DNA of 64,000 nt, taken from assembly GCA_022841375.1 (NCBI GenBank), contig JALHRQ010000008.1, positions 1-64,000 on the forward strand, read 5' to 3'. Positions 9,200-23,425 of this stretch are shown piece by piece. This DNA comes from Burkholderiales bacterium (lineage in GTDB: Bacteria > Pseudomonadota > Gammaproteobacteria > Burkholderiales > SG8-41). How positions within the stretch are numbered: position 1 is the first letter of the stretch; each line of letters begins with the position of its first letter. The position numbers were made by a program, and so were the translations under genes. A model generated the notes under the pieces. The model searched no databases and was not told the DNA's origin. It was given only the letters and a program-made list of their open reading frames with translations.

Positions 9200-9209
9200 T
9201 GGAACGCCG

Positions 9210-9884
9210 ATGAGATTATTGCTGATAATGCTGGTGCTGGTGAACCTCGGATTTTTTGGCTATCACCGTTTTCTCAATGAAACGACGGATACGTCCGCGC
9301 AGATCACCGCGCTGCAGATCAGCCCGGAGAAAATCAGCCCCATAGTTTTATCAGCGTCGTCTGCAGTCGCCGCGACCGCGCCGGCCGTTGCACCTGTAAC
9401 ACCGTTACAGACTGCGTGTGTGGAATGGGGGGCATTTGGCGGGGCCGATGTCGCGCGTGCGGATGGCGCGCTGGCTGCCCTGGCACTGCCGGCCGACGCA
9501 GTGCAGCGACGGGTCACCGACATCGACGGCTATTGGGTACACATGCCGGCGTTCAAAACCAAGGCCGAAGTCGATCGCAAGCTGGGTGAACTGAAAGCGC
9601 TGGGGGTGACCGATTTTTTTGTGGTGCAGGATGCCGGTCTGTGGCGCAACGCGGTATCGCTGGGCCTGTATAAAAGCGAGGATGCGGCCACTGCCGAGCT
9701 GGAGCGATTGCGCAAGATCGGCGTGCGTTCGGCATTGGTTACCCGGCGCGAGAAATTCCTCAAGCAGGTGAGCTATTTTGTGCGCGAGCCCAGTGCGGCG
9801 ACGATTGCCCGCATCACCGAATTGCAGCGTGATTTTCCGATGGCCGAAATAAAAGCCCTCAGTTGTCCGACACCAGGGCTATAA
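9210..9884 (+). CDS. Membrane-anchored SPOR-domain-like protein
   Basis: A 224-residue protein with an N-terminal signal anchor (hydrophobic residues 2-18), an Ala/Pro/Val-rich spacer and a C-terminal SPOR-like region with GYWVHMPAF and a VSLGLYKSEDAA strand-helix pattern. SPOR domains bind denuded glycan at the division septum, which would place the protein at the septal periplasm. It begins 10 bp after coaX, forming a birA-coaX-SPOR operon. The SPOR match is weaker than in classic FtsN-like proteins, and its exact role is unknown. Confidence 0.75.
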   Translation: MRLLLIMLVLVNLGFFGYHRFLNETTDTSAQITALQISPEKISPIVLSASSAVAATAPAVAPVTPLQTACVEWGAFGGADVARADGALAALALPADAVQRRVTDIDGYWVHMPAFKTKAEVDRKLGELKALGVTDFFVVQDAGLWRNAVSLGLYKSEDAATAELERLRKIGVRSALVTRREKFLKQVSYFVREPSAATIARITELQRDFPMAEIKALSCPTPGL

Positions 9885-9938
9885 ATACTGTTTAAAAACA
9901 AACGCTTAACTAATTTTATTCACTTAGTGAGTGCTTGC

Positions 9939-10433
9939 TCAGCGTGGTTCGGTTGCCCGTACTTTTTCCAGCAGCGCGGTGGTTGAGCGCTGGTGGGCAA
10001 ACGCAATCGAGTGCACACGCCCGCCCCAGCCCTGCACTTCACGGGCACCGACAATGGCCCCGGGTTTCCAGTCGCCGCCTTTCACCAGCACATCCGGTTT
10101 GACGGCGAGGATCAGCTCCAGCGGGGTGTCGGCCTCGAACCAGGTGACGCGGTCCACGCAGGCCAGCGCCGCAATCACTGCGGCGCGATCGGCCAGTGTG
10201 TTGACCGGGCGATCAGCGCCTTTGCCCAGGCGTTTTGCTGACGCATCACTGTTCAGCGCAACGATCAGGCTGGCGCCGAGAGCACGGGCCTGCGCCAGGT
10301 AAGTGACATGGCCGCGGTGCAGGATGTCGAAGACGCCGTTGGTGAACACCAGCGGGCGCAGCAGTTGCGCGGCATGGACGGCAATGTCGCCGGGGGCGAC
10401 GATGTGCCGTTCAAAAGCGGGAGTGTCGTGCAT
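9939..10433 (-). CDS. rfaE2: D-glycero-beta-D-manno-heptose 1-phosphate adenylyltransferase
   Basis: A 164-residue nucleotidyltransferase equivalent to the C-terminal half of HldE. It activates heptose-1-phosphate with ATP to make ADP-heptose for the lipopolysaccharide inner core. The family motif FTNGVFDILHRGH (about residues 30-42) includes the nucleotide-binding HxGH, and VKGGDWKP lies near residue 118. The kinase half is absent, so it is the split type. It follows the diiron protein gene by 59 bp on the same strand and may be the last gene of that operon or independent. GmhA, an earlier step of the pathway, is at 22.5 kb. Confidence 0.93.
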   Translation of the reverse strand: MHDTPAFERHIVAPGDIAVHAAQLLRPLVFTNGVFDILHRGHVTYLAQARALGASLIVALNSDASAKRLGKGADRPVNTLADRAAVIAALACVDRVTWFEADTPLELILAVKPDVLVKGGDWKPGAIVGAREVQGWGGRVHSIAFAHQRSTTALLEKVRATEPR

Positions 10434-10492
10434 GGGCTGGCAGTCTACGCGTGCGCGCTGCCGCCGACAAACGCCGGGCCGGACGGGCAGAT

Positions 10493-11404
10493 TCAGTTTG
10501 CCGGAATTTCCTTGCGGAAGCGGTTGAGGTCTTTCACCGACTCAAACTCCCGACCGAACAGCAGCGACAGATTACGAAGAATCACCGCCACCACTTTGTG
10601 CTCCCAGTCACGGTCGAAGCGGATCTGTTGGTCGAGCCAGCGCTCCAGCCACTCGGGGTCGGGCAGGCGGCTCTGCACGGTGTCGTTGGGGAACAGGCTT
10701 TTGTTGACATGCAGATTGGTCGGATGCAGCGGCTTGCCGCTGCGTCCTGAACTGGCCATCAACACGCCGACCTTGGCAAAAGCGGTGCGCGCAGTGTCGC
10801 CGGCGCTGTTCAGTGCGCGTTTCATGTATTGCAGGTAAGCGCCGCCGTGGCGCGCCTCGTCGCGCGAAATCAGGTTGTAGATATGCCGGATGACCGGCTC
10901 GGTATGCCAATCCATCGCGCAGCGATACCAGTGATTGAGGCGGATTTCACCACAGAAATGCATCATCAGCGTTTCCAGTGGCGGGGCCGGGTCGAAGACA
11001 AAGCGCACCGCCTGCAGTTCCTCCTGCGTCGGCACCAGTTCCGGTCGGAAGCGGCGCAGGTATTCCATCAGCACCAGCGAATGTTTCTGCTCTTCATAAA
11101 ACCACACCGACATGAAGGCCGAGAAGTCGCTGTCATGATGGTTGTCGCGCAGGAACATTTCGGTGGCCGGCAGCGCGGCCCACTCGGTGATCGCGTTCAT
11201 CTTGATGGTCAGCGCCTGCTCGTCCGACAGTTTGCTGGCGTCGAAGGTATCCCACGGCACATCGCTGCCCAGGTTCCAGCGGATCTGTTCCAGGGATTTG
11301 AAGATTTCCGGATACAACATCGTTCCGGTGGTGATGAATTCCGGAGTGGCTTGCATGGCGGCTTCAGTGGCTTTCGGTGTGACAGGCATCTGCATTATGT
11401 TCAT
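10493..11404 (-). CDS. Ferritin-like diiron protein (acyl-ACP desaturase-like)
   Basis: A 303-residue helical protein with a complete carboxylate-bridged diiron signature: Glu74 or Glu82 on the first helix, Glu105-x-x-His108 (EEQKH), Glu153 on a third helix and Glu183-x-x-His186 (DEARH). This spacing is like soluble acyl-ACP desaturases and related oxygen-activating enzymes rather than ferritin iron stores. No signal peptide or membrane segment is visible, so it is cytoplasmic. Its start overlaps the photolyase-like stop by four bases. The reaction is unknown; sitting beside a fatty-acid methyltransferase cluster, it could desaturate or oxygenate an acyl chain. That is inference. Confidence 0.72.
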   Translation of the reverse strand: MNIMQMPVTPKATEAAMQATPEFITTGTMLYPEIFKSLEQIRWNLGSDVPWDTFDASKLSDEQALTIKMNAITEWAALPATEMFLRDNHHDSDFSAFMSVWFYEEQKHSLVLMEYLRRFRPELVPTQEELQAVRFVFDPAPPLETLMMHFCGEIRLNHWYRCAMDWHTEPVIRHIYNLISRDEARHGGAYLQYMKRALNSAGDTARTAFAKVGVLMASSGRSGKPLHPTNLHVNKSLFPNDTVQSRLPDPEWLERWLDQQIRFDRDWEHKVVAVILRNLSLLFGREFESVKDLNRFRKEIPAN

Positions 11405-12927
11405 CCTAATGTTTCCAGAATATTGCGGGCGCTGGCGCGAATCGCGTCTCGTTCCGCAGTGCTCAGGCGCGATACATTGCGCGCCATCAGTACGGTGCGT
11501 GGATTGCGCGCCAGCTGCTGTTCATGACGATCCAGAAAATACCAGTACAGCGTGTTGAACGGGCAGGCTTTGGCGCCGGTTTTCAGCTTTACATCATAGC
11601 TGCAACTGCTGCAGTAATTACTCATCCGTTTGATGTAGGCCCCTGAGGCGATGTAGGGTTTGCTGGTGAACCGGCCACCGTTGGCATACAGCGCCATGCC
11701 CGCGGTGTTGGGCAGTTCGACCCATTCGACGGCATCGACGTAAACCGCGAGATACCACTCGTGCACCGCCTGCGGCTTGATGCCGGCGAGCAGCGCGAAA
11801 TTGCCGGTCACCATCAGGCGCTGGATGTGGTGGGCGTAGCCGTGCTTCAGGGTCTGGCCGATGGCTTCGCGCATGCAGGTCATCTGGGTATCCCCGGTCC
11901 AGTACCAGGCCGGCAGCGCGCGGTCGTGGCCGAAATGATTGGCCTCCAGCAGGCCGGGCATGTCCAGCCAGTAGACGCCGCGGATGAATTCGCGCCAGCC
12001 GAGAATTTGCCTTATAAATCCTTCAGTTGCAGCCAGCGGCGCATGCCCTTTGCGCCAGGCGGCGACTGCTGCGGCGATGACTTCGCGCGGATTCAGCAGT
12101 TTCAGGTTCAGCGCCGCCGCCAGCAGCGAGTGCCAGCCGAAAGGCATGCCGGTCCACATCGCATCCTGATGCTGGCCGAAACGCGGCAGGCGATGTTCAA
12201 CAAAATCGTCCAGCGCGCGCAGGGCGTCGGCGCGGGTGACCGGCCAGTGAAAATCGTCCAGTTCCCCCGGGTGTTGCGAAAACCGGCCACTTACCAGTGC
12301 GATAACGTCACGGGTGATGGCATCGGGCGCGAACTGCGGCGGCCGGGGGAGCGGACCGGGCCCGGTTTTCGTAAAACCAGCGCGATTGTCAGTATCGAAG
12401 TTCCAGCGACCACCCGCAGGCTGCCCGTCTTCCATCATTACATCCTGGCGGCGGCGCATTTCCCGGTAGAAAAACTCCATGCGCAGTTCGCGGCGGTCTT
12501 TGGCCCATGCCGCAAAGGCTTCGCGACTGCACAGGAAATGGCTGTCGCCGCGAACCTCCAGCGCAATGGCGGATTCCCGGCAGACCTGTTCAATGTCCTG
12601 CTGCAGCCGGTATTCGCCGGGCTCGCAGACGATCAACTTTTCCGGCCGGCATTGTGCAATGACGCCGCGCAGGCGCGCCGCAAGGGTGGTTTCTGCGGCG
12701 TCGTCGAGCGCAAGATAATGCAGTGGCAGATCGCGTGATCGCAGCGTTTCCGCGTAGTGGCGCATCGCCGACAGGAACAGCACAATGCGCGCCTGATGGT
12801 TCCAGACATGGGTGGATTCTCCAGCGGCCTCGATCATCACGATACCGTCACTGGTGCTGTCGCTGCCGGTCAGCGCCGGATTGTCGGAATCGAGCTGGTC
12901 GCCCAGAATCAGGATCAGGTTACGCAT
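11401..12927 (-). CDS. Iron-sulfur bacterial cryptochrome/photolyase (CryPro/PhrB type)
   Basis: A 508-residue member of the deoxyribodipyrimidine photolyase-related family, whose studied members repair (6-4) photoproducts or act as blue-light proteins. It has an N-terminal Rossmann-like antenna domain (RNLILILGDQLD) and a C-terminal FAD domain with GWREFIRGVYW and YAHHIQRLM. The four cysteines that bind the 4Fe-4S cluster are at 351, 439, 442 and 455, one residue off the set 350/438/441/454 known in Agrobacterium PhrB. Family members use FAD and a lumazine antenna. It is downstream of the LitR-like regulator and DUF2256 gene and overlaps the diiron gene. Confidence 0.93.
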   Translation of the reverse strand: MRNLILILGDQLDSDNPALTGSDSTSDGIVMIEAAGESTHVWNHQARIVLFLSAMRHYAETLRSRDLPLHYLALDDAAETTLAARLRGVIAQCRPEKLIVCEPGEYRLQQDIEQVCRESAIALEVRGDSHFLCSREAFAAWAKDRRELRMEFFYREMRRRQDVMMEDGQPAGGRWNFDTDNRAGFTKTGPGPLPRPPQFAPDAITRDVIALVSGRFSQHPGELDDFHWPVTRADALRALDDFVEHRLPRFGQHQDAMWTGMPFGWHSLLAAALNLKLLNPREVIAAAVAAWRKGHAPLAATEGFIRQILGWREFIRGVYWLDMPGLLEANHFGHDRALPAWYWTGDTQMTCMREAIGQTLKHGYAHHIQRLMVTGNFALLAGIKPQAVHEWYLAVYVDAVEWVELPNTAGMALYANGGRFTSKPYIASGAYIKRMSNYCSSCSYDVKLKTGAKACPFNTLYWYFLDRHEQQLARNPRTVLMARNVSRLSTAERDAIRASARNILETLG

Positions 12928-12931
12928 GGGT

Positions 12932-13060
12932 TCAACGGCTGCGCCGGCAGCGCTCGGAGCAATATTTGACCTCGTCCCAGACTTTTGCCCAGCGTTTACG
13001 CCAGGTCATTGGGCGGCCGCAGGCCGAGCAGGGTTTAACCGGCAGTTCCGATTTGCGCAT
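12932..13060 (-). CDS. DUF2256 zinc-ribbon-like mini-protein
   Basis: A 42-residue protein starting MRKSELPVKPC and ending SERCRRSR. It has the DUF2256 pattern: CxxCGRPMTWR (Cys11, Cys14), then KVWDEVKYCSERC (Cys34, Cys38), four cysteines suited to one zinc. The function is unknown; the family is repeatedly found beside cryptochrome/photolyase genes. Here it sits between the LitR-like gene (20 bp away) and the photolyase-like gene (4 bp away) on the same strand. Its shortness makes it easy to miss, but motif, position and spacing all support it. Confidence 0.88.
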   Translation of the reverse strand: MRKSELPVKPCSACGRPMTWRKRWAKVWDEVKYCSERCRRSR

Positions 13061-13080
13061 GGTGCAGTGCTCTGTGCGGA

Positions 13081-14010
13081 TCAGCGGCGCACGTGTTCGA
13101 CGCGCCAGCGCTCCAGCGCGTAACGCATGTCTTCGAACGAACGCAGCAGCAGGATGCCTTCGGGCGCCTTGCGTGCACGAGCCAGGGCGCCGCCGCCGCC
13201 CCAGATTTCGACGCCTTCGGCCAGCAGGCCACGCAGTTCGGTCAAACCGGCCAGCGCCGCGCTCTGAGTCACCGCGCTGCTGAACGACAGCGCCACCACA
13301 TCGACAGCGTAGGCCGGCACGGCATTCTTGATGTCGATGACCGGGGTTTCGGTGCCGAGCGCAACGCAGGCGGCGCCCTCGGCGGTCAGCACCGCTTCCA
13401 CCATCAGCAGTCCGATGCGGTGTTTTTCTCCAGGCAGTGAAGTCAGCAGCACTCGCGGCACCGAACCGCGGCCAGGCTGGGCAATGATCGCGTTACGCAG
13501 GATGTTCTGAATGTGTTCGGAATACAGGTGCTCGTCGAAAATGGCAACCCGGCCGGTCAGCCAGGCTTCGCCGATCCAGTGATTGAGCGTGGTCACCGTT
13601 TCGGTGACGAAGCGGAGCAGTCCCTGTTTCATCAGCGCCTGCAACAGGGCGTTACGGAAATTCTCGACATCGTGGCGCAGCAGCAACTCGATGATCGCAT
13701 CAATCTCCGGCGGCGGTGTTTGTGCCGGCGAACGCGAGGAAATCAGTTGTGTGAGTTCGGAGACGCTGCGGTTGATGATTTTGCCGGGGCGGTGGCCGTA
13801 GTCGATGAGCAGGCGCAACAGGCGCAGCTTTTCCAGTTGCGGCAGCGAATACAGGCGCTCGTCGTGACGATCGCGCAGTGGTTTAGGGAAGCCGTATCGG
13901 CGTTCCCAAACCCGCAAGGTGTCTTTTGACAAGCCGGTATCCCGCTCGACCGCAGCGATGTTGTAGCTGAGATCCTGCGTTGTCCCCACTATGCTAAGGG
14001 TATTGTTCAT
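13081..14010 (-). CDS. litR: LitR/CarH-type MerR regulator with B12-binding light-sensor domain
   Basis: A 309-residue regulator. Residues 14-75 form a MerR DNA-binding domain (YNIAAVERDTGLSKDTLRVWERRYG). Residues 100-180 are the helical cap and 185-305 the cobalamin-binding Rossmann domain. The light-sensor signature W-x9-EH is exact (Trp150, Glu160, His161), and the lower cobalt ligand is His197 in GEKHRIG, as in CarH. Known homologues bind operators in the dark as adenosylcobalamin tetramers and release on illumination. No cysteine-rich tail is seen. It is the first gene of the leftward operon and is divergent from folE2, so it probably controls both sides. Confidence 0.93.
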   Translation of the reverse strand: MNNTLSIVGTTQDLSYNIAAVERDTGLSKDTLRVWERRYGFPKPLRDRHDERLYSLPQLEKLRLLRLLIDYGHRPGKIINRSVSELTQLISSRSPAQTPPPEIDAIIELLLRHDVENFRNALLQALMKQGLLRFVTETVTTLNHWIGEAWLTGRVAIFDEHLYSEHIQNILRNAIIAQPGRGSVPRVLLTSLPGEKHRIGLLMVEAVLTAEGAACVALGTETPVIDIKNAVPAYAVDVVALSFSSAVTQSAALAGLTELRGLLAEGVEIWGGGGALARARKAPEGILLLRSFEDMRYALERWRVEHVRR

Positions 14011-14023
14011 TTGTCGTGGACAA
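14011..14023. promoter_or_regulatory. Inverted repeat directly upstream of the LitR-like gene
   Basis: TTGTC-GTG-GACAA is a perfect inverted repeat abutting the litR start codon. Its GGACA half matches the repeats at 14089-14107, which makes it a candidate autoregulatory site. Confidence 0.35.
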
Positions 14024-14088
14024 GATCGAGTTTTATCGTTAAAAAATGGGAATTAAGGCATTCGTTAGGTATCTTTGACCAAGACATT

Positions 14089-14107
14089 ATTGGACAGACA
14101 TTGGACA
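14089..14107 (+). promoter_or_regulatory. Candidate LitR operator: direct repeats 11 bp apart
   Basis: ATTGGACA occurs at 14089-14096 and again at 14100-14107, exactly 11 bp apart, with a further GACA at 14083. CarH-type regulators are known to bind tandem 11-bp direct repeats with ACA-containing cores, so the spacing fits. The site is about 110 bp upstream of folE2 and 80 bp from the litR start, in the shared divergent promoter region. TTGACC at 14075-14080 could be a -35 element, but no convincing -10 is seen. Confidence 0.5.
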
Positions 14108-14217
14108 AAGTCAATCCATGCGAGGGTCCTTAAACGCATATTTTGATTTGTTCCCCGTGCCTGATGACAGCAACTGGTCTTGGATCCACCGCGATTTATC
14201 CCCTTACAGGAGTTCCC

Positions 14218-15012
14218 ATGAACGCCCCCGAAAAATGGCTGTTGCCGGATGTCCAGGCCATCGCCGACCGTCGCAACATCTACATCAACCACGTCGGCGT
14301 GAAATCGCTGGTGCATCCGATCCGCATTGCCAGCGCCAAAGGCGGTGTGGTCGCCACTGTCGCCATCGTTGATATGACGGTCGGCCTGCCGCCCGAGGTC
14401 AAGGGCACGCACATGTCGCGTTTTGTCGAGGTGCTGCAACAGCATGAACAGGCGCTGGATGCCGCCGGATTTGCCGCGCTGCTGGAGAAAATGACCCAGC
14501 GCCTGGATGCCGACAGCGGCATGATCGAAATGCGTTTTCCCTATTTCATCAGCAAGCGCGCGCCAGTGTCCGGTGTGGCCAGCCTGCTCGATTACAAGGT
14601 GATGCTGCGCGGCGAACGCAAGGCGGGCAGCAGTGTTTTCACCACTCAGGTGTCGGCGCCGGCAACCAGCCTATGCCCGTGTTCGAAGGAAATTTCCGAA
14701 TACGGTGCACACAACCAGCGCTCGCACATCACCATCACCGTGGAAGCCGCCGCGACCCTGACCATCGAGGAAATTGCCGGCATCGCCGAGCAGGAAGCTT
14801 CCTGTGAAGTCTACGGGCTGCTCAAGCGTCCGGATGAAAAATACGTGACCGAACGCGCCTACGACAACCCGAAATTTGTCGAAGACCTGGTCCGTGACAT
14901 CGCGTTGCGTCTTGACGCAGACACCCGGGTGCGCAGCTACAAGGTCGAAGCGGAGAACTTCGAATCCATCCATAACCACTCGGCCTACGCGCTGGTTGAG
15001 CGCATCAAGTGA
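14218..15012 (+). CDS. folE2: GTP cyclohydrolase FolE2 (type IB)
   Basis: A 264-residue cytoplasmic enzyme that converts GTP to 7,8-dihydroneopterin triphosphate, the first step of folate and pterin synthesis. It has the FolE2 motifs GTHMSRF at residues 63-69 and LCPCSKEIS[10 protein letters not shown] at 152-170, with Cys153 as likely active-site cysteine. Type IB enzymes can use metals other than zinc and elsewhere are often induced by zinc shortage. The ATG at 14218 has a good upstream AGGAG. It is the first gene of the rightward cluster, and its product could feed a pterin or folate cofactor needed by the photolyase branch. Confidence 0.95.
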
Positions 15013-16331
15013 CTTCGGGTATGTACACGCAAGCCCGCGGCAAACGCATTGCCGTCGTCGGTTCCGGGATTGCCGGGCTGTCTGCCGCCTGGCTGCTGTC
15101 GCGCGCGCATGCAGTGACCCTGTTCGAAGCCAACGATTACCTTGGCGGTCACACGCACACGGTCGATGTCACGCTGGACGGCATTACCGCGCCGGTCGAT
15201 ACCGGGTTCCTGGTGTTTAACGAACGCACCTATCCCAACCTGATTGCGTTGTTCGACCATCTCGGCGTGGCATCGACGGCCAGCGACATGTCGTTCTCGG
15301 TGCGGCTCGAGCGCGAAGGTCTCGAATGGGCGGGCAGCAGCCTGGCGACGGTGTTTGCGCAGCGGCGTAACCTGCTGCGTCCGGCGTTCTGGGGCATGCT
15401 CGGCGACATCGTCCGCTTTAACCGGGAAGCAACGGCGCTGGCGCAGTCGCAGAGCTCTTCAGCGCAGTCGTTGGGCGAGTTTCTCGCTACCGGCCGTTAC
15501 GGCCGCGCATTCCGCGATTGGTATCTGCTGCCGATGGCCGGCGCGATCTGGTCTTGTCCGACGGCGACGATGCTGCAATACCCGGCGCGCACTTTTTTCA
15601 TATTCTGCGCCAACCACGGTCTGCTTCAGGTCAGCGACCGTCCGCAATGGCGCAGCGTCAATGGCGGCTCGCGCAGCTATGTCGAGAAGCTCGCGCACGA
15701 CTTGTCCGATATCCGCCTCAACATGCCGGTGCAGCGCATCCTGAGGCATCCGCGTGGTGCCGAACTGCAGTTCGCCGGCCATGCGGCAGAACATTTTGAC
15801 GAGGTGGTGCTGGCCTGTCACAGCGATCAGGCGCTGCAACTGCTGGGAGATGCCGACGCCGCAGAACGCCGGGTGCTCGGTGCGATTCATTACCAGGACA
15901 ACGACGTCGTGCTGCATACCGATGAAGAATTTCTCCCGCGGCGGCGTTCGGCCTGGTCGGCGTGGAATTACCATGCGCATCAAGGTGCCGACCGCGATCA
16001 ACCCGTGGGCGTCAGCTACCTGATCAACAAGCTGCAGCCTTTGCCGTTCAGCCGGCCGGTGGTGGTCACGCTGAATCCTGCGCGAGAGCCGCGCGCCGAA
16101 TGCATCATCGACCGCTATCGATATGCGCATCCCGTTTTCGATCTTGGCAGCATTGCGGCGCAGGTGCGATTGCCGCAGTTGCAGGGCCGGCATCACACCT
16201 GGTTTTGCGGCGCTTGGGCGGGTTACGGTTTTCATGAAGACGGTTTGAAGGCCGGCATGGCGGTTGCCGCAGCGCTGGGCGTCGAAGCGCCATGGCTGGC
16301 ACAGTCCGGGGCGCTGAAGGCTGCGGCATGA
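15009..16331 (+). CDS. FAD-dependent amine-oxidase-like oxidoreductase
   Basis: A 440-residue flavoprotein with an N-terminal dinucleotide-binding fold ([11 protein letters not shown], about residues 19-29) followed by the E[12 protein letters not shown] flavin motif. It belongs to the NAD(P)-binding/amine oxidase group that, in light- or singlet-oxygen-induced clusters of other proteobacteria, sits next to DUF1365 and a CFA-type methyltransferase. GTG at 15009 overlaps the folE2 stop; an ATG at 15021 is an alternative start. The substrate is unknown; a membrane acyl chain is a reasonable guess from context. Confidence 0.85.
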
Positions 16332-17101
16332 GTATCGGCTATCAAAGTGCACGGCTGTATTGCGGCGAAGTTCTGCATCGCCGCCTGGCGCCGGCACGGC
16401 ATGCCTTCCGTTACGGTGTATTTTTCCTGCGCCTGCGCATCGATGGCCCGCCACCCGGATTTCCGGCACTGTGCTCGCGCAATCGCTGGAACCTGTGCAG
16501 TTTTTATGACGCCGATCACGGTCCGCGCGACGGCAGCCCGCTTGAACCGTGGATTCGCAACATTCTGACCCGCCACGGGTTGGATTGCGCAGATGGCGCG
16601 ATCTGGCTGCAGGCTTTTCCACGCGTGCTGGGTTACGTGTTCAACCCGATCAGCTTCTGGCTGTGCCATGACCGTGCCGGCGCCTTGCGTGCGGTACTGG
16701 CTGAAGTCAGCAATACCTTCGGTGAGCGTCACAATTATCTGGTATCACATGCCGATGCGCGGCCGATTGCCGCCGGTGACTGGCTGACGGCGCGCAAGGT
16801 ATTCCATGTGTCGCCGTTTTTCCCGGTGACCGGTGAATACCGCTTTCGTTTTGCCGATCATTCTGAGCGCTGCGCTTTTCGCATCGATTACGACGATGGC
16901 CAGGGCCACAGTCTGCTGACCAGTGTCAGCGGGGCCGCGCGCCCGTTGAGCACCGCGACGATGGCGCGCGCGCTGATCCGTTATCCATGGATGACGCTGG
17001 GTGTGGTCCTGCGCATCCATTATCAGGCGCTGCGGCTGTGGCTGAAGCGCGTACCCTTTTTTCCGAAACCCGTCCCACCTGCAGAAGATACGACTCGATG
17101 A
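16328..17101 (+). CDS. DUF1365 family protein
   Basis: A 257-residue protein of the DUF1365 family, beginning [19 protein letters not shown] and containing the family segments RFGYVFNPISFW-like (GYVFNPISFWLCH), EVSNTFGERHNYL and KVFHVSPFFPVTGEYRF. No catalytic residue is established. The family is nearly always found between an amine-oxidase-like gene and a CFA-type methyltransferase gene, as here, so it probably acts on the same lipid substrate. It overlaps both neighbours by ATGA. Confidence 0.88.
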   Translation: MSIGYQSARLYCGEVLHRRLAPARHAFRYGVFFLRLRIDGPPPGFPALCSRNRWNLCSFYDADHGPRDGSPLEPWIRNILTRHGLDCADGAIWLQAFPRVLGYVFNPISFWLCHDRAGALRAVLAEVSNTFGERHNYLVSHADARPIAAGDWLTARKVFHVSPFFPVTGEYRFRFADHSERCAFRIDYDDGQGHSLLTSVSGAARPLSTATMARALIRYPWMTLGVVLRIHYQALRLWLKRVPFFPKPVPPAEDTTR

Positions 17102-18309
17102 ATCAGACACTGACCGAAAATGCGCCACAGCGCGCAGAACCCGCCGCCGCCCGCTGGATGTTCCGGCTGCTTTCGAAATTGCGCTGCGGCAAAATGACAC
17201 TGCGTTGTCCGGATGGACGCGCGCTTGAGTTTTCGGGCGCGCAGCCCGGCCCCCATGCGACGCTGGCATTGGCTGACTGGCAGGTCTGCGGCGATATCCT
17301 AAGCCGCGGCGATATCGGCCTGGCAGAAGCGTATATTGCCGGCCGCGCCAGGACCGATGACCTGACGCAGCTGATGCTGCTGGCGGCGATGAACGAGCAG
17401 GCGATCGAAGATGCCATTCATGGCCGCTGGTGGGCGACCTTCGCGTACCGCATGCGCCACTGGCTGCGGCCGAACACGCGCGCCGGCAGCCGGAAAAACA
17501 TCCACGCCCACTACGACCTGGGTAATGATTTCTACCGGCTGTGGCTGGATTCGACAATGACCTATTCATCGGCGTTGTTCGAGGGCGATCTCACGCGCAG
17601 CCTGGCTGATGCACAGTCGGCGAAATACGCACGCATTCTGCGAGCGCTCGATGCGCAGCCGGGTCAGCACATTCTTGAGGTCGGCTGCGGCTGGGGTGGT
17701 TTCGCCGAACATGCGGCGCGCGCCGGATGCCGCGTCACCGGCATCACCATCTCCGAGGCCCAGCTGGAATTTGCGCAGCGGCGCATTGTCGCTGCAGGAC
17801 TTCAGAACCGTGTCGAATTGAAACTGCTCGACTATCGCGATCTTGCCGGCCAGTTTGATCATGTCGTGTCGATCGAGATGTTCGAGGCGGTGGGCGAACG
17901 CTATTGGCCCGGCTATTTCAGCCTGCTGCGCAACTGCCTGAAGCCCGGAGGCCGTGCGTTGGTGCAGAGCATCACCATCGCTGAGGCGAAGTTCGAGCGT
18001 TATCGCACCGGTACCGACTTTATCCAGCAATACATATTCCCCGGCGGCATGCTGCCTTCGCCGAGCCGGTTCGGCGAGGTGGCATCGGCTCACGGACTGG
18101 CCGTCACAGACATGCATCATTTCGGACTCGATTACGCCGAGACGCTGCGGCGCTGGCACCAGATGTTCGATTACGCCGCTCCGGAAGTGAAGTCGCAGGG
18201 CTTTGATGATCGATTCATGCGCACCTGGCGTTTTTACCTCGCTTATTGCGAGGCCGGCTTCCGCAGCCGCGCTACGGATGTGGTGCAGGCGGTGCTGGTC
18301 CATGCGTAA
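17098..18309 (+). CDS. Cyclopropane-fatty-acid-synthase-type SAM methyltransferase
   Basis: A 403-residue enzyme with an N-terminal lipid-binding-like domain (about residues 30-110), then HYDLGNDFYRLWL (138-150) and the SAM-binding VGCGWGGF (195-202). True CFA synthases add a methylene across the double bond of phospholipid acyl chains. Close cluster relatives methylate vaccenate to make 11-methyl and furan fatty acids, and the sequence alone cannot separate the two. It acts at the inner face of the cytoplasmic membrane. It overlaps DUF1365 by four bases and the next gene by eight. Confidence 0.88.
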   Translation: MNQTLTENAPQRAEPAAARWMFRLLSKLRCGKMTLRCPDGRALEFSGAQPGPHATLALADWQVCGDILSRGDIGLAEAYIAGRARTDDLTQLMLLAAMNEQAIEDAIHGRWWATFAYRMRHWLRPNTRAGSRKNIHAHYDLGNDFYRLWLDSTMTYSSALFEGDLTRSLADAQSAKYARILRALDAQPGQHILEVGCGWGGFAEHAARAGCRVTGITISEAQLEFAQRRIVAAGLQNRVELKLLDYRDLAGQFDHVVSIEMFEAVGERYWPGYFSLLRNCLKPGGRALVQSITIAEAKFERYRTGTDFIQQYIFPGGMLPSPSRFGEVASAHGLAVTDMHHFGLDYAETLRRWHQMFDYAAPEVKSQGFDDRFMRTWRFYLAYCEAGFRSRATDVVQAVLVHA

Positions 18310-18847
18310 CGCCGCCACATTTGCGTTGGCGCTGTTGCTCGCGCCGCCTGCCGCCGCTGTCAACGTCCCGGCCGAACTGCCGACGGCAGTGTGCAGCGCG
18401 CTGGAAACCTGCCGCATGGTCGGTAAGGGGCGTTTGCGCTGGTGGGGTTTCCATGTTTATGACGCCGCGCTTTGGACGCGCGACGGTCGCTGGCAGGCCG
18501 ATGCGCCGTATGTGCTGGATATTGTTTATGCGCGCCAGGCGACGGCCGCCCAACTGGCGGAAACCAGCATCGACGAAATGCGCCGTCTCGGCGTAAGGGA
18601 TGAGGCCAAGCTGGCGCGCTGGGACGCGGCAATGCGCAGCACTTTTCCCGATGTGCAGTCCGGCAGCCGCCTGATCGGCGTTTACCGGCCGCAGCGCGGC
18701 GCGCAGTTCTACTCAGCCACGAAGCTGCTGGGCACCATTGACGACCCGGAGTTTGCACGCCGCTTTTTCGAAATCTGGCTGGATCCGCGTACCCAGACCC
18801 CCGATCTGCGCGCCGCACTGTTGAGCGGCAATGGCCGCACTGACTAA
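18302..18847 (+). CDS. Chalcone-isomerase-like secreted protein
   Basis: A 181-residue protein with a signal peptide (hydrophobic residues 6-19, Ala-rich cleavage region) followed by a domain resembling the bacterial chalcone isomerase-like family: GKGRLRWWGFHVYDAALW near residue 40 and FARRFFEIWLDPRTQTPDLR near the end. It is expected in the periplasm. Fatty-acid binding is known for some chalcone-isomerase-fold proteins, which would suit this cluster, but no catalytic role can be assigned. It overlaps both neighbours. Confidence 0.78.
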   Translation: MRNAATFALALLLAPPAAAVNVPAELPTAVCSALETCRMVGKGRLRWWGFHVYDAALWTRDGRWQADAPYVLDIVYARQATAAQLAETSIDEMRRLGVRDEAKLARWDAAMRSTFPDVQSGSRLIGVYRPQRGAQFYSATKLLGTIDDPEFARRFFEIWLDPRTQTPDLRAALLSGNGRTD

Positions 18848-20123
18848 GACTGCACTGACGGCTTATGCCGCAGTAGCGCTGCCGCTTGCAGCGGCAGCCT
18901 TGCCGGTGCATGTGCAGGTGCCGAAGTTCTACTCCGGGCTTGGTCTGGATCTCGCGGTTATCGGTGCGGTGCTGCTCGGCGTGCGCCTGCTGGATGCTGT
19001 CAGCGATCCGCTGCTCGGCGCGCTGGCCGATCGCATTCCACGTCGCTTCGGTGGGCACAAGGCGATGATTGCCGGCGCCGTGCCTGCGCTGGCCGCCGGA
19101 CTCTGGCTGCTGTTTAATCCGCCGGCAACACTGACGCTGCTGGTGCCCTGGTTGATGGCTGCATTGGTGCTCGCTTACCTGGGACTGAGCGCGGCCAGCA
19201 TCGGCCACCTCGCGCTGGGCAGCGCACTGTCGCGTGATTACGCCGAGCGCACCCGGATCACCGCGACACGCGGGGTTGCCGCGCTGGCCGGGGTGCTTTG
19301 TGCTGCCGCCATCCCGGAATTGCTGGTCCGCCAATACGGAACCAGCGAAGGACTTGCCTCGTTCGCCCTCGGTTATGCACCCTTGCTGGCGCTGGCTGCT
19401 GCGATTACGGTTTTTGCGGGTCCGGCACCCGCGGTAATCTCGACGGCACGCAACATGACCTGGCGCGGCCTGCTGCAGCCGCTGCGCAACCCGCGGTTCC
19501 GGCGTCTGGCCGCGGTGTTCCTGGTCAATGGCACGGCAGCCGCTGTGCCGGCGACGCTGCTGCTGTTTTTTGCTGCCGATGTATTGCAGCGTGCAGATCT
19601 GACGCCGTTGTTCCTGATCCTCTATTTCGCTGCCGGCGCGGCCGGGATGCCGCTGTGGGTGCGCCTCGCTGATCGGGCCGGCAAAGTCCGCGCCTGGCTG
19701 GTGTCGATGGTGCTGGCGGTTGCGGCGTTTGTCTGGGCATGGTTTCTGGGTGCCGGTGATGCAGCGGCATTTGCTGCAGTGTGCGTGCTATCCGGGATCG
19801 CCTTCGGCGCCGATCTTGCGCTGCCGGCGGCACTGCTCGCCGATTTGATCGATGACGATGAAGACGACCGCGGTCGTCCCGACGGGGCTTATTTCGGGTT
19901 GTGGCATCTGCTGGAGAAGCTGGCGCTGGCGCTGGCGGCGGGCGTCGCGTTGCCGATGCTGCAATGGCTGGGTTATCAGCCGGGATCGGCGGCGGGTTCG
20001 GGTTCTGCCTTGTCGCTGGTTTACGCACTTCTGCCTTGCGCCATCAAACTGGTGGCGGCGGGGATGTTGGCGTTGACCCTGACCGACACGCGCCATGCAG
20101 CGCTATTTTTAAAGGAGCAGTGA
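18831..20123 (+). CDS. MFS transporter (GPH/MelB-like)
   Basis: A 430-residue integral membrane protein with about twelve hydrophobic helices. The first cytoplasmic loop has the MFS-like DAVSDPLLGALADR motif near residue 56, typical of the glycoside-pentoside-hexuronide subgroup, and an acidic DDDEDDRGRPDG loop is near residue 342. Despite the subgroup name, the substrate in these lipid clusters is not known; a lipid or lipid precursor is possible. It overlaps the previous gene by 17 bases and ends one base before DUF3833. Confidence 0.82.
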   Translation: MAALTKTALTAYAAVALPLAAAALPVHVQVPKFYSGLGLDLAVIGAVLLGVRLLDAVSDPLLGALADRIPRRFGGHKAMIAGAVPALAAGLWLLFNPPATLTLLVPWLMAALVLAYLGLSAASIGHLALGSALSRDYAERTRITATRGVAALAGVLCAAAIPELLVRQYGTSEGLASFALGYAPLLALAAAITVFAGPAPAVISTARNMTWRGLLQPLRNPRFRRLAAVFLVNGTAAAVPATLLLFFAADVLQRADLTPLFLILYFAAGAAGMPLWVRLADRAGKVRAWLVSMVLAVAAFVWAWFLGAGDAAAFAAVCVLSGIAFGADLALPAALLADLIDDDEDDRGRPDGAYFGLWHLLEKLALALAAGVALPMLQWLGYQPGSAAGSGSALSLVYALLPCAIKLVAAGMLALTLTDTRHAALFLKEQ

Positions 20124-20124
20124 A

Positions 20125-20655
20125 ATGATTTTATTGCGAAGCGTGCTGTTGATGTTGTTGATGTCACTGGCGGGTTGCGGATCGGTCGCGGTCGACCAGT
20201 ATCGCGCGGAACGGCCGGTGCTCGATCTGCAGCGTTATTTCAACGGCACCATCGATGCATGGGGAATTTTTCAGGATCGCAGCGGCAAAGTGGTTAAACG
20301 GTTTACCGTGCGCATCGATGCCCGCTGGTCCGGCAATACGGGGACTCTCGATGAACATTTCGAGTATTCTGACGGCAGCAAGAGCCGCCGGGTGTGGACG
20401 CTGGAGCGCATCGATGAACACCGGTATCGCGGCACCGCCGACGATGTGATCGGTGAGGCAATTGGCGAACTGCAGGGCAACGCGTTGCGTTGGCAATACG
20501 TGCTGAAGCTCGACGTTGACGGCCGCGTCTGGGAAGTGGATTTTGACGACTGGATGTATCTGATGGACGATCAGGTGATGCTCAACCGTTCGGTGATGAG
20601 CAAGTTCGGGGTGCGCCTCGGCGAAGTGACGTTGAGTTTCCGGCGGCGTCCATGA
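20125..20655 (+). CDS. DUF3833 family lipoprotein
   Basis: A 176-residue protein with a lipoprotein signal peptide: hydrophobic residues 7-15 and lipobox LAGC with Cys18. The mature part has the DUF3833 features DLQRYFNGTIDAWGIFQDRSG and a DDWMYLMDDQVMLNRSVMSKFG block near the end. It should be anchored to the outer or inner membrane in the periplasm. The function is unknown; the family co-occurs with CFA-type methyltransferases in light- or stress-induced clusters. It overlaps the SDR gene by four bases. Confidence 0.88.
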   Translation: MILLRSVLLMLLMSLAGCGSVAVDQYRAERPVLDLQRYFNGTIDAWGIFQDRSGKVVKRFTVRIDARWSGNTGTLDEHFEYSDGSKSRRVWTLERIDEHRYRGTADDVIGEAIGELQGNALRWQYVLKLDVDGRVWEVDFDDWMYLMDDQVMLNRSVMSKFGVRLGEVTLSFRRRP

Positions 20656-21428
20656 GCCTCAACCGTCGCATCCTTGAGTGGCGGGACCAGCGCGTGTGGG
20701 TCGTCGGCGCGTCGAGTGGCATTGGTGAGGGTCTGGCCGCTGCGCTGCTGGCACGGGGCGCCCGTGTCGCGTTGTCGGCAAGGCGTGTGGCGGAGCTGGA
20801 ACGAATGGCAACGGCGCATGGCGCGCGTGCGCTGGCGTTGCCGCTGGACGTAACCGATGCGGCTGCCGTCGCGCCAGCGCTGCAACGCGTGATTTCCGCT
20901 TGGGGCGGCGTGGATCTGGTGGTGCTGTGTTCGGGCAGCCACCAGCCGGTGCGGGCCTGGGAACTCGATGCCGCTGAAGCGCGGCGCCTGGTCGACATCA
21001 ACGTCAACGGTGTGTTCAACTGCCTGCAGCCGGTCATCGGGCAATTGCTGCAGCAGGGGGCTGGCGGCGTCGCTGTGGTGTCGAGCGTCGCCGGCTATGG
21101 CGGATTGCCGACGGCCCTGGTCTACGGCGCGACCAAGGCGGCGCTGATTAATCTTTCCGAGACTCTGTATCTGGATCTTGCGCCGCGCGGCATCGGCGTT
21201 TATGTGATCAACCCCGGGTTCGTCAAAACGCCGCTGACCGACCGCAATACGTTTGCGATGCCGGCGCTGATCAGTGTGGAAGCGGCTGCTGCTGCGATCA
21301 TCGCCGGTTTTGCCAGAGGTGATTTCGAGATTCACTTTCCAAAGCGCTTCACGTTGTGGCTCAAGCTGCTGCGCCTGCTGCCGTATCGCTGGTATTTCGC
21401 GCTGATACACAAGGGGACGGGTTTATGA
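20652..21428 (+). CDS. Short-chain dehydrogenase/reductase of the lipid cluster
   Basis: A 258-residue SDR with cofactor motif GASSGIG (about residues 19-25), CSGS in place of the usual NNAG, catalytic Ser in VVSSVAG and YGATK (YxxxK) near residue 157. The C-terminus has an amphipathic LWLKLLRLLPYRWYF stretch that may contact the membrane. The substrate is unknown but is likely an acyl or oxidised lipid intermediate, given operon position. It overlaps its neighbours at both ends by four bases. Confidence 0.85.
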   Translation: MSLNRRILEWRDQRVWVVGASSGIGEGLAAALLARGARVALSARRVAELERMATAHGARALALPLDVTDAAAVAPALQRVISAWGGVDLVVLCSGSHQPVRAWELDAAEARRLVDINVNGVFNCLQPVIGQLLQQGAGGVAVVSSVAGYGGLPTALVYGATKAALINLSETLYLDLAPRGIGVYVINPGFVKTPLTDRNTFAMPALISVEAAAAAIIAGFARGDFEIHFPKRFTLWLKLLRLLPYRWYFALIHKGTGL

Positions 21429-21868
21429 CGCCGCAACGGGTGGATGCGCTGGTACATTACTTTGAAACACTGACTCGGCAGTCAGTTGCCGAACTGGCGA
21501 ACTACTATGCTGCGGACTGCCGTTTCCGCGATCCCTTCAACGACGTACAGGGGATTCCCGCGATGACGGCCATTTTTCAGCACATGTTCGATCGTCTGGA
21601 TGCGCCGCGATTTCTGGTGCGTGAGCGGGTGGCTGACGGAGCGCGAGTGCTGCTGACCTGGGATTTCGAATTTCGTTTTCGGAGTTGGCGGCCGCAAGTA
21701 ACGCAGAACATCCATGGCGCCAGCCTGATCACGTTTAATGCGGCAGGCCTGGTGGCGGTACATCGCGATTACTGGGATGCGGCGGAAGAGCTGTATGAAA
21801 AACTGCCGCTGGTCGGCGCGGTGCTGCGCCTGCTGAAACAACAAGGGCGCCCCAAGGCGCCCTTGTAA
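21425..21868 (+). CDS. NTF2-like (SnoaL-type) protein, last gene of the lipid operon
   Basis: A 147-residue protein with the cone-shaped NTF2-like fold pattern: YFETLTRQSVAELANYYAADCRF at the start, then FRDPFNDVQG, and HRDYWDAAEELYEKLPLVG near the end. NTF2-like proteins range from isomerases to binding proteins, so no reaction is assigned. A similar family member closes related light-induced clusters. Its last codons lie inside the operon's terminator hairpin. It starts within the SDR stop codon. Confidence 0.82.
   Translation: MTPQRVDALVHYFETLTRQSVAELANYYAADCRFRDPFNDVQGIPAMTAIFQHMFDRLDAPRFLVRERVADGARVLLTWDFEFRFRSWRPQVTQNIHGASLITFNAAGLVAVHRDYWDAAEELYEKLPLVGAVLRLLKQQGRPKAPL
21841..21866. 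terminator. Terminator hairpin overlapping the last codons of the NTF2-like gene
   Basis: ACAAGGGCGCC (21841-21851) pairs perfectly with GGCGCCCTTGT (21856-21866) around a CCAA loop. The stem ends inside the stop codon and is followed by an AT-rich but interrupted T stretch. The dolP-like gene converges on it from the right. Confidence 0.75.
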
Positions 21869-21887
21869 GTCATTGTTTATTTATATT

Positions 21888-22454
21888 TTAATCAAGGTAT
21901 TCGAATAACCGGACAACCTTGCTGACGCCGCCGGTGGTACGCGCGATCTCTGTGGCATCGGTGGCTTCCTGTTTCTTGACCATGCCCAACAGATAAACAA
22001 CGCTGGCTTCGGTGACGACTTTGACATGCACCGCGCTGAACTTGTTGGCATCGACGAAGCGGCCTTTGACCTTTGAAGTGATCACCGAATCGTTGGTGCG
22101 GGCCTGCAGTGAAGTATTGCCGCCAACCTTGAGTTCATTGAATACGTTACGCACGTTTTCGACGGCGCGGGTGATGCGTTCGGCGTCGGATTTCGCGGCT
22201 TCGGTCGGGACCTCGCCGGTCAACAGCACTACGCGGTTGAAGCTGGTGACGTTGATGTGGGCATCTTTGACCTTTTCCTCGATCCGTGAAGACGCTTTGA
22301 GTTCAATTCCCTGATCCTCGGTGATGGTGCCGACGGTGCGGCGATCCTCCGCCATGATGATGCCGGTTGCTGCCGCGCCTCCGAGGGCAACCGCGGCACA
22401 GCCGGATACCACGGGCAACAGCGCGATGCAGGTTAACGTGAGCAAATTACGCAT
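21888..22454 (-). CDS. dolP: BON-domain lipoprotein (DolP/YraP-like)
   Basis: A 188-residue outer-membrane lipoprotein. The signal peptide ends in lipobox VSGC (Cys19) and is followed by two BON domains (about residues 48-115 and 118-188), which bind anionic phospholipids. In E. coli DolP supports outer-membrane integrity and the BAM complex. The gene order rsmI, lpoA, yraN, SIS protein, BON lipoprotein is the same as in E. coli, which strengthens the call. Its start codon directly abuts the upstream gmhA stop. Confidence 0.9.
   Translation of the reverse strand: MRNLLTLTCIALLPVVSGCAAVALGGAAATGIIMAEDRRTVGTITEDQGIELKASSRIEEKVKDAHINVTSFNRVVLLTGEVPTEAAKSDAERITRAVENVRNVFNELKVGGNTSLQARTNDSVITSKVKGRFVDANKFSAVHVKVVTEASVVYLLGMVKKQEATDATEIARTTGGVSKVVRLFEYLD

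Positions 22455-23408
<954 letters not shown>

Positions 23409-23425
<17 letters not shown>

Follow-up and report, generated by a model that had tools for sequence, protein, structure and literature searches.

What switches on the divergent gene cluster at positions 10,493 to 21,868 of contig JALHRQ010000008.1, and what does it make? The contig belongs to a Burkholderiales bacterium (GTDB SG8-41; GenBank assembly GCA_022841375.1), and we analysed its first 64,000 nucleotides, read on the forward strand and called the window here. Thirteen genes form two operons that diverge from a 207-bp intergenic region. The left operon encodes a LitR-type MerR regulator and an iron-sulfur (FeS) photolyase, and the right one starts with folE2 and continues with genes of furan fatty acid (ufa) synthesis. 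We propose that light induces this cluster, which would serve against photo-oxidative stress, by relieving repression by a B12-type LitR; we hold this reading to be likely though some way from certain. On the evidence of its genes and control region, this freshwater bacterium probably switches the cluster on in the light through a vitamin-B12-type sensor, for DNA repair and for protective furan lipids. The enzymes are known; their pairing with a B12-type LitR and the precisely spaced DNA switch look new. A literature search, made mostly without subscription papers, found no report of a B12-type LitR controlling ufa genes or of the operator described below. In the literature covered, control of ufa genes has so far been worked out for extracytoplasmic function (ECF) sigma/ChrR systems and for a LitR controlled by a light-oxygen-voltage (LOV) protein.

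In the proposed mechanism, LitR loaded with adenosylcobalamin (AdoCbl) would bind in the dark to two operators, O1 and O2, about six helical turns apart, and would repress the promoter of litR itself together with the folE2-ufa operon. On illumination the cobalt-carbon bond would break, LitR would release the DNA and both operons would be transcribed. The FeS photolyase of the left arm would then repair UV lesions. In the right arm, FolE2 would supply pterins, and UfaM, then UfaD, then UfaO would convert cis-vaccenoyl phospholipid into a methylated furan fatty acid able to scavenge singlet oxygen. By analogy, the closest tested precedent is Pseudomonas mendocina, for which light is reported to raise phrB and ufaM transcripts approximately 25–33-fold and a class II LitR to repress a promoter of the same region in vitro (PMC9758184).

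Paired palindromes in the divergent control region

We compared the intergenic region with those of two sets of relatives. The first comprises the best 80 named loci, chosen by similarity from at least 585 LitR relatives; it is not a random sample, its members share ancestry and its counts are not independent. The second comprises 19 near loci, 17 from the window's genus and two from near genera. The core TGTC-N3-GACA was found in 67 of 79 LitR upstream regions, as against 0.2 expected from first-order Markov shuffles (10 sets), with the extended consensus TTTGTC-N3-GACAAA. The DNA upstream of LitR (32.6 kb) contained 74 sites matching at least 11 of the 12 consensus bases, from 60 of the 80 loci, and the flanking DNA (1.21 Mb) contained 7. 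Two of these seven lie just past the scored interval (L081 and L114), and two belong to Thauera propionica, in which the ufa genes are on the LitR strand 2.2 kb away and a site pair 63 bp apart stands upstream of ufaD. Pairs scoring at least 20 out of 24 were spaced by 62 bp in 7 of the 80 sequences, by 63 bp in 17 and by 64 bp in 10; every other spacing from 30 to 119 bp occurred in zero to two sequences, except 74 bp, which is roughly one helical turn more and occurred in six. Among the near loci, O1 scored 10–12 in all 19, and an O2 scoring at least 8 was present 62–64 bp from O1 in 17.

Ufa loci that lack this LitR served as controls. None of seven such loci (five genomes, a Burkholderia anthina plasmid with a sigma/anti-sigma pair and a Cupriavidus plasmid with another helix-turn-helix protein) had a site of at least 11/12, and three had sites of 10/12. 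The plasmid-borne LitR loci of Azoarcus KH32C and Eleftheria terrae had pairs at 74 and 62 bp, respectively. These counts suggest that the palindromes go with LitR and not with the Ufa genes. This speaks against the cluster being a general singlet-oxygen or peroxide stress operon induced largely by an ECF sigma factor, after the manner of Rhodobacter and Shewanella, with LitR a minor or inactive modulator. Similar gene sets are indeed under RpoE-ChrR in Rhodobacter (PMC7074977) and Shewanella (PMC4336711), one stands beside the sigma/anti-sigma pair of the B. anthina plasmid, and GGGAATT lies upstream of TATC at O2, in place of a TTGACA box, in 12 of the 19 near loci. However, this motif is not conserved in the other seven and is unlike the Shewanella ECF promoter as described, TGATCC (PMC4336711). 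A search of the genome for a ChrR/sigma pair found none (Cupin_7 search; one protein scored above the cut-off, with no sigma-factor-like open reading frame (ORF) seen by eye in the 11 kb around it), ECF sigma factors other than ChrR partners not having been searched. We therefore regard control by an ECF sigma factor as improbable, and favour LitR as the regulator.

The predicted leftward litR promoter is the sole promoter-like site in 13950–14260 (0.3 expected), and the same form recurs in 17 of the 19 near loci. In other betaproteobacteria, TTGAC-N17/18-TATNNT was seen by eye between O1 and O2 in many of the sequences inspected; the window's genus departs from this common design, no TTGACA-type promoter having been found between the two sites. 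An ECF-like GGGAATT/GTATC reading of the rightward promoter was considered and not adopted, since 12 of the 19 near loci have it. In the window, O2 is followed by two TGGACA direct repeats 11 bp apart.

How does this layout relate to known operators? CarH operators are described as direct repeats of 11 bp, nnnnTnnACAn, in three or four tandem copies; for Myxococcus xanthus CarA, an early proposal had two inverted repeats, one of them overlapping the −35 element, and more recent work reads the operator as direct repeats (PMC9304148, PMC8156234). Because the half-site here fits TnnACA, it appears to be shared with CarH, and it is the doubled inverted layout that seems to differ. The reported class II LitR operator, T(G/A)TACA-N12-TGTACA (PMC9758184), is not the form met here, in which the conserved core is TGTC-N3-GACA.

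In the 4.07-Mb genome the dual-site pattern matched once, at the window pair, and the control gave no match. Since the pattern had been relaxed (TGNC) so that it would accept O2 of the window, this result tests for further copies and not for the window pair itself. Exact TTGTC-N3-GACAA occurred at 13 sites versus 5 in a reversed control (exact matches only): besides the window site and L154, they comprise 11 that fall within plausible long ORFs. With a single dual-site match and the other sites mostly within ORFs, LitR looks to be a mainly local regulator. A genome-wide LitR regulon was looked for and not found, there being no second dual site and 11 of the 12 other exact sites lying inside long ORFs. 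Within the window, the single-site pattern with up to two mismatches gave 43 matches against 20 expected, mostly intragenic, and we take this excess as composition.

Two side observations concern further sites. At L154 (C6:15035 of the same genome), the exact core stands 7 bp before a 145-amino-acid ORF, though also within an ORF on the opposite strand; it is the single further candidate for a LitR site that is not clearly within a gene. In two lineages (L226:10373 and L231:10364), a third palindrome scoring 10/12 was seen inside the litR coding sequence, at a similar place.

The LitR protein and the signal it may read

The LitR protein aligns with the Thermus thermophilus CarH-type structure 3whp over residues 12–243 (E 1.5e-26). 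The light-response signature of cobalamin domains has been given as GxxW, EH, GxxH and GxxxP (PMC11796333). Aligned to the T. thermophilus pTT27 CarH, the window LitR carries it in full, as G147xxW150, E160-H161, G194xxH197 and G219xxxP223, and all four elements are invariant in a 17-member LitR alignment (A1; mean column identity 64%). In the best 80 LitRs, GxxW-x9-EH was matched in 80 of 80, as was GxxxP by a loose pattern. From its MerR domain, both B12 domains and this signature, LitR is predicted to be an AdoCbl photoreceptor-repressor of the class I type. The genome also encodes a BtuR/CobA adenosyltransferase, which forms AdoCbl. A second MerR-type protein of the same genome (C12:102059, L002; a 350-amino-acid ORF) has a LitR-like DNA-binding domain and a divergent C terminus.

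Several observations weigh against the proposed light-induced cluster under a B12-type LitR. Both B12 domains of LitR score slightly below the curated Pfam cut-offs (B12-binding_2, 22.1 bits, 1.8e-4, cut-off 23; B12-binding, 30.6 bits, 3.3e-7, cut-off 32.1), and the NCBIfam CarH equivalog NF052513 gives 133.7 bits (E 7.3e-39) against a cut-off of 400, so that the protein is related to CarH and not filed as CarH. The Gly of GxxH was unmatched by the pattern in 60 of the best 80 named LitRs (matched in 20), and the GxxxP pattern is loose. His132 of T. thermophilus CarH (TtCarH), the second ligand of the bis-His light state, is Leu in the window and His in 0 of the 80, and a TtCarH H132A mutant is reported to be unable to monomerise (PMC11796333). 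Not all members need this residue, however, because CtMerR has Arg in its place and yet goes from tetramer to monomer in the light (PMC11796333). At the DNA level, the window's O2 fits the consensus at only nine bases, and a search of 13950–14260 for a rightward sigma-70 promoter made none evident. FolE2 and phrB are each missing from 6 of the 19 near loci, with none of the six at a contig end beside LitR. Finally, no CrtI carotenoid desaturase was found above the family cut-off in the genome, so the furan lipid may take the place of a carotenoid quencher; but a full-length CrtI-family match at 120 bits (cut-off 238) means that some carotenoid route is possible.

The missing His132 and the score well below the CarH equivalog cut-off would also suit an alternative in which LitR answers another signal or partner and not light through B12, the cluster still being light-controlled by a photoreceptor that is elsewhere or different. 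Precedents within the family have been described: illumination turns a short LOV protein into an inhibitor of class II LitR, and the class III protein shows light-dependent spectra with an unidentified chromophore and no similarity to the B12 domain (PMC9758184). On the other side, the window LitR matches both B12 domains and all four signature elements, whereas class II keeps only the four-helix domain, and there is no LOV protein among the scanned cluster genes, the rest of the genome not having been searched for LOV. We judge this alternative unlikely, and retain B12-dependent light sensing by LitR as the preferred explanation.

Gene content of the two operons

The features of the cluster are collected in Table 1. 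Pfam matches are strong for most of the 13 genes, the weak ones being those of the diiron protein and of the LitR cobalamin domains. In the right operon, seven of eight junctions overlap by 4–17 bp and 1 bp separates the genes at the remaining one; in the left operon the genes are spaced by −4, 4 and 20 bp. The intergenic region has a GC content of 43%, and the DNA around it 56–67%. No Rfam match to a structured RNA was found in 9000–23500, a terminator scan was uninformative (12 sites versus 13.6 in shuffles), and PADLOC gave only a weak MerR-domain match.

An earlier note, made from the sequence of the window, had described a 13-gene divergent cluster with nearly all genes overlapping, and ORFs with Pfam and NCBIfam matches confirm it. 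The LitR-type regulator that it placed at the centre is borne out by Pfam and by the 3whp match, although its B12-binding type had gone unrecognised, and the single divergent control region that it proposed proves to be the 207-bp intergenic region with its paired palindromes. Membership of one regulon had been argued from gene order; because the paired palindromes lie in the divergent promoter, the case now extends beyond gene order.

Table 1. Genes and candidate control elements of the divergent cluster (window positions).
Feature	Positions	Strand	Basis
Diiron carboxylate protein, acyl-ACP-desaturase-like fold	10493-11404	-	Pfam FA_desaturase_2 2.6e-8; 4-bp overlap with phrB
PhrB/CryB-type iron-sulfur photolyase	11401-12927	-	Pfam DPRP 1.4e-76
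DUF2256 protein, 42 aa	12932-13060	-	Pfam DUF2256 3.1e-21
LitR/CarH-family MerR regulator, both B12-binding domains	13081-14010	-	Pfam MerR_1 2e-9, B12-binding_2, B12-binding
Candidate operator O1, TTTGTCGTGGACAAG	14010-14024	.	11/12 consensus bases; abuts LitR start codon
Candidate operator O2, TTTGACCAAGACATT	14074-14088	.	9/12 consensus bases; 64 bp from O1
Predicted leftward litR sigma-70-type promoter, TTGACT-N17-AATAAT	14086-14114	-	10/12 matches; -10 overlaps O2
Two TGGACA half-sites, 11 bp apart (14091, 14102)	14091-14107	+	Fit CarH direct-repeat core TnnACA
FolE2, GTP cyclohydrolase IB	14218-15012	+	Pfam 5e-92; NCBIfam FolE2 above cut-off
UfaD-type FAD/amine-oxidase-family protein	15009-16331	+	Pfam Amino_oxidase 1.1e-21; UfaD identity predicted from family and gene order
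UfaO-type DUF1365 protein (predicted furan-ring oxygenation)	16328-17101	+	Pfam DUF1365 3.5e-81
UfaM-type S-adenosylmethionine-dependent acyl methyltransferase, CMAS family	17098-18309	+	Pfam CMAS 2.3e-84
Chalcone-isomerase-like (Chalcone_3) protein	18302-18847	+	Pfam 6.3e-9
MFS_2/GPH-type transporter	18831-20123	+	Pfam MFS_2 9e-64
DUF3833 protein	20125-20655	+	Pfam 2.4e-71
Short-chain dehydrogenase/reductase (SDR)	20652-21428	+	Pfam adh_short 2.6e-44
NTF2/SnoaL-like protein	21425-21868	+	Pfam SnoaL_2 3.6e-15

In Rhodobacter sphaeroides, UfaM is reported to methylate cis-vaccenoyl chains, UfaD to desaturate the product and UfaO, a DUF1365 protein, to form the furan ring with O2; ufaM, ufaD and ufaO together are enough for furan fatty acid (PMC7380195). 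In the window, the CMAS-, amine-oxidase- and DUF1365-family genes adjoin and overlap, so that a Ufa-type gene set is present, its members being assigned by family and order. The order of the UfaD-type, DUF1365 and cyclopropane-fatty-acid (CFA)-type genes is the same as at other loci, and the UfaM-type methyltransferase scores under the three NCBIfam CFA-synthase cut-offs shown. Judged by these families and their order, the right operon is the known furan-fatty-acid enzyme set, FolE2 included; we call the module known because most genes of the window operon have counterparts in the R. sphaeroides RpoE regulon. The DUF2256, chalcone-isomerase-like, MFS, DUF3833, SDR and NTF2-like proteins are presumably accessory, and we assign them no role.

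The photolyase matches CryB (PDB 3zxs, 2.8e-157) and the (6-4) photolyase PhrB (4dja, 2.2e-149). In the alignment it has the same cysteines as the C-terminal region of CryB, which we take to serve an iron-sulfur cluster.

Genome profile searches gave one FolE2 match and a separate FolE, and FolE2 here is thus an extra enzyme. It was found near LitR in 33 of the best 80 named loci and 13 of the 19 near loci. In two loci (L074 and L142), short ORFs upstream of UfaD resemble the FolE2 N terminus and look like remnants of a lost folE2. According to published accounts, folE2 belongs to the RpoE regulon of R. sphaeroides and is co-induced in Rhodobacter capsulatus (PMC7074977), a review places it among the light genes of Pseudomonas putida (PMC8508746), and the corresponding P. 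mendocina gene is named folE (PMC9758184). FolE2 was considered as a novelty of the cluster and rejected, being already part of the Rhodobacter RpoE regulon and variable between loci.

The diiron protein calls for separate treatment. Its best Pfam match is FA_desaturase_2 (33.6 bits, cut-off 22.7) over a short stretch, and AurF falls below its cut-off (27.4 bits, cut-off 29.6). An AlphaFold model (pLDDT 80.5, pTM 0.82) has acyl-ACP (acyl carrier protein) desaturases as its best Foldseek matches (E 1.7e-4, TM approximately 0.5, root mean square deviation 7–14 Å). The residues of an E...ExxH...E...ExxH motif (E74, E105/H108, E153 and E183/H186) are invariant in 26 sequences, and the motif suggests that they are the metal ligands. 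Among 300 genomes of the order, 125 have the diiron gene and 94 have LitR: 62 have both, 63 the diiron gene alone, 32 LitR alone and 143 neither (Fisher p 1.7e-8, relatedness ignored). The two genes lie within 15 kb of each other, in fact at most 9.3 kb apart, in 41 of the 62 genomes with both. Of 20 loci among the 63 without LitR, 14 have rfaE2 adjoining, 5 have Ufa genes, 1 has FolE2 alone and 14 have neither Ufa nor FolE2. In the window, the gene is probably co-transcribed with phrB, as the overlap suggests. Being common without LitR and often beside rfaE2, it is treated here as a neighbour, and it is probably that rather than a pathway-defining part.

These counts bear on the idea that the diiron and chalcone-isomerase-like proteins add steps, yielding a lipid different from the known furan acids. 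The diiron protein is well conserved (mean column identity 73% over 36 sequences, alignment A2; the 64% for LitR comes from a different set), keeps its ligand motif and is often near LitR, and a chalcone-isomerase-like gene is present in 50 of the best 80 named loci. Against this, 63 of the 300 genomes have the diiron gene without LitR, the 20 loci above mostly carry rfaE2 and no Ufa or FolE2 gene, the LitR-ufa operon of Azoarcus KH32C has no diiron gene among its annotated neighbours, and UfaM, UfaD and UfaO are enough in Rhodobacter (PMC7380195). We consider such added steps very improbable, and expect the known furan acids as the product. The diiron protein as a candidate pathway part was weakened by its presence without LitR in 63 of 300 genomes, with rfaE2 often adjoining.

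The earlier note had also linked the cluster to light- or singlet-oxygen-induced furan-fatty-acid sets, a link that is tightened by UfaO being a DUF1365 protein and by the sufficiency of UfaM, UfaD and UfaO in Rhodobacter. A variant pathway marked by FolE2, the diiron protein and the chalcone-isomerase-like protein, as it suggested, is not supported: folE2 is known from the Rhodobacter RpoE regulon and the P. putida light genes, the diiron gene is often beside rfaE2 in genomes without LitR or adjoining Ufa genes, and the chalcone-isomerase-like gene also occurs in Ufa operons with other regulators.

Distribution and relation to known systems

The comparison of gene neighbourhoods across betaproteobacteria that the earlier note had proposed was run on the best 80 named loci, whose neighbour counts are lowered by short contigs. 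UfaD was found near LitR in 69, UfaO in 67, UfaM in 64, SDR in 47, MFS in 46, NTF2-like in 45, DUF3833 in 44, the diiron gene in 31, the FeS photolyase in 17 and DUF2256 in 14. Genus and family names were all betaproteobacterial, with a few entries titled only Proteobacteria or bacterium. At E 1e-30, the window's genus had LitR in 18 of its 21 genomes, counting the one that the window comes from, and the family had it in 33 of 74. UfaD is beside LitR in 18 of the 19 near loci, and the contig of the nineteenth ends before the UfaD position. The layout differs elsewhere in the family: 16 loci from other genera include 10 with UfaD near LitR, on the LitR strand. The gap between LitR and FolE2/UfaD exceeds 330 bp in 44 loci, 29 of which have an ORF with a glutathione-peroxidase motif there (one was scanned: GSHPx 8e-33). 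Taken together, these neighbourhoods point to a widespread photo-oxidative-stress module in betaproteobacteria, of which the window appears to be one form.

Variants of the locus were also noted. In loci L033, L034, L036–L045 and L067, from other genera of the same family, LitR is adjoined on its own strand by a second CFA-type gene that is more distant, and UfaD/O/M lie approximately 3.5–3.8 kb away on contigs long enough to include them. In other betaproteobacteria the right operon often begins with a gene for a predicted secreted glutathione peroxidase (L092, L093, L096, L109, L133, L138 and others), which the window lacks. The conjugative Burkholderia anthina plasmid NZ_CP071828.1 (L227) carries Ufa genes, a chalcone-isomerase-like gene, DUF2256 and GTP cyclohydrolase I beside its sigma/anti-sigma pair; this set suggests that the Ufa module moves on plasmids with a different regulator. 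In L219, a TetR-like ORF occupies the LitR position between the diiron gene and UfaD, another regulator swap. On the Eleftheria terrae plasmid NZ_CP106953.1 (L231), LitR with paired palindromes faces a fasciclin-domain gene, with imuA-type mutagenesis genes adjoining; a fasciclin gene, RSP_1409, is listed in the Rhodobacter RpoE regulon (PMC7074977).

A broader proposal, which we put forward tentatively and with rather less than even confidence, is that betaproteobacteria have a B12-photoreceptor branch that reads a DNA code of its own. An AdoCbl-LitR tetramer would bridge two 15-bp inverted repeats about six turns apart (seven in the 74-bp class) and hold the promoter between them in the dark; the main output would be a furan lipid and not a carotenoid, the light state would do without His132, and the enzyme module would have changed masters repeatedly (LitR, ECF sigma/anti-sigma, TetR-like repressor). 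Should a B12-type LitR control the ufa operon throughout betaproteobacteria, the membrane chemistry of common bacteria of fresh water, soil and sludge would respond directly to B12 status and green light. Sequences can be checked for the switch simply by looking for the operator, and the switch itself can be tested in cultured carriers such as Azoarcus sp. KH32C.

Among known systems, the R. sphaeroides RpoE-ChrR regulon is listed as rpoE, chrR, cfaS (RSP_2144, that is, ufaM), phrA, RSP_1091/1090 (UfaD, UfaO), the GPH symporter RSP_1089, the hypothetical RSP_1088, the SDR RSP_1087, folE2 and a few others (PMC7074977 Table 1). It thus has UfaD, UfaO, UfaM, a GPH symporter, an SDR, FolE2 and a photolyase in common with the window. 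There, an ECF sigma factor and its anti-sigma factor act on several loci, whereas the window has LitR, one divergent locus and a PhrB/CryB-type FeS photolyase, together with chalcone-isomerase-like, NTF2-like, DUF2256 and diiron genes as extras. The class II LitR regulon of Pseudomonas (PplR1-3, PmlR1/2) is described as alike in its LitR family, in light-induced phrB and ufaM, in SDR and FAD genes of the same region and in folE-type genes; its LitR is described as having no second B12 domain, as LOV-controlled and as using TGTACA-N12-TGTACA, in contrast to the paired TTTGTC-N3-GACAAA of the window. CarH and CarA (Thermus, Bacillus, Myxococcales) share the MerR and cobalamin domains, the signature residues and the TnnACA half-site. 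They are reported to control carotenoid genes; the CarH operators characterised so far consist of tandem 11-bp direct repeats, and direct repeats are now favoured for CarA too. In the window, by contrast, the predicted targets belong to furan-lipid synthesis, and the sites have the form of inverted repeats of 15 bp, set 62–64 bp apart. The blue-light response of Vibrio cholerae through MerR (VCA0056)/ChrR and the Shewanella RpoE2-ChrR regulon are alike in that photolyase and CFA-type genes are co-induced (PMC5241685, PMC4336711), and the Shewanella regulon also has a periplasmic glutathione peroxidase (PMC4336711). In Shewanella the CFA-type operon belongs to the ECF branch, and Vibrio LitRs are described as mainly class IV, without a B12-binding domain (PMC9758184). 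The locus on plasmid pAZKH of Azoarcus sp. KH32C (AZKH_RS25985-26025) has LitR (AZKH_RS26025) divergent from UfaD, UfaO, UfaM, chalcone-isomerase-like, MFS, DUF3833, SDR and NTF2 genes, as in the window, and paired palindromes. It differs in having no FolE2, photolyase, DUF2256 or diiron gene among its annotated features, in its 74-bp operator spacing and in being plasmid-borne.

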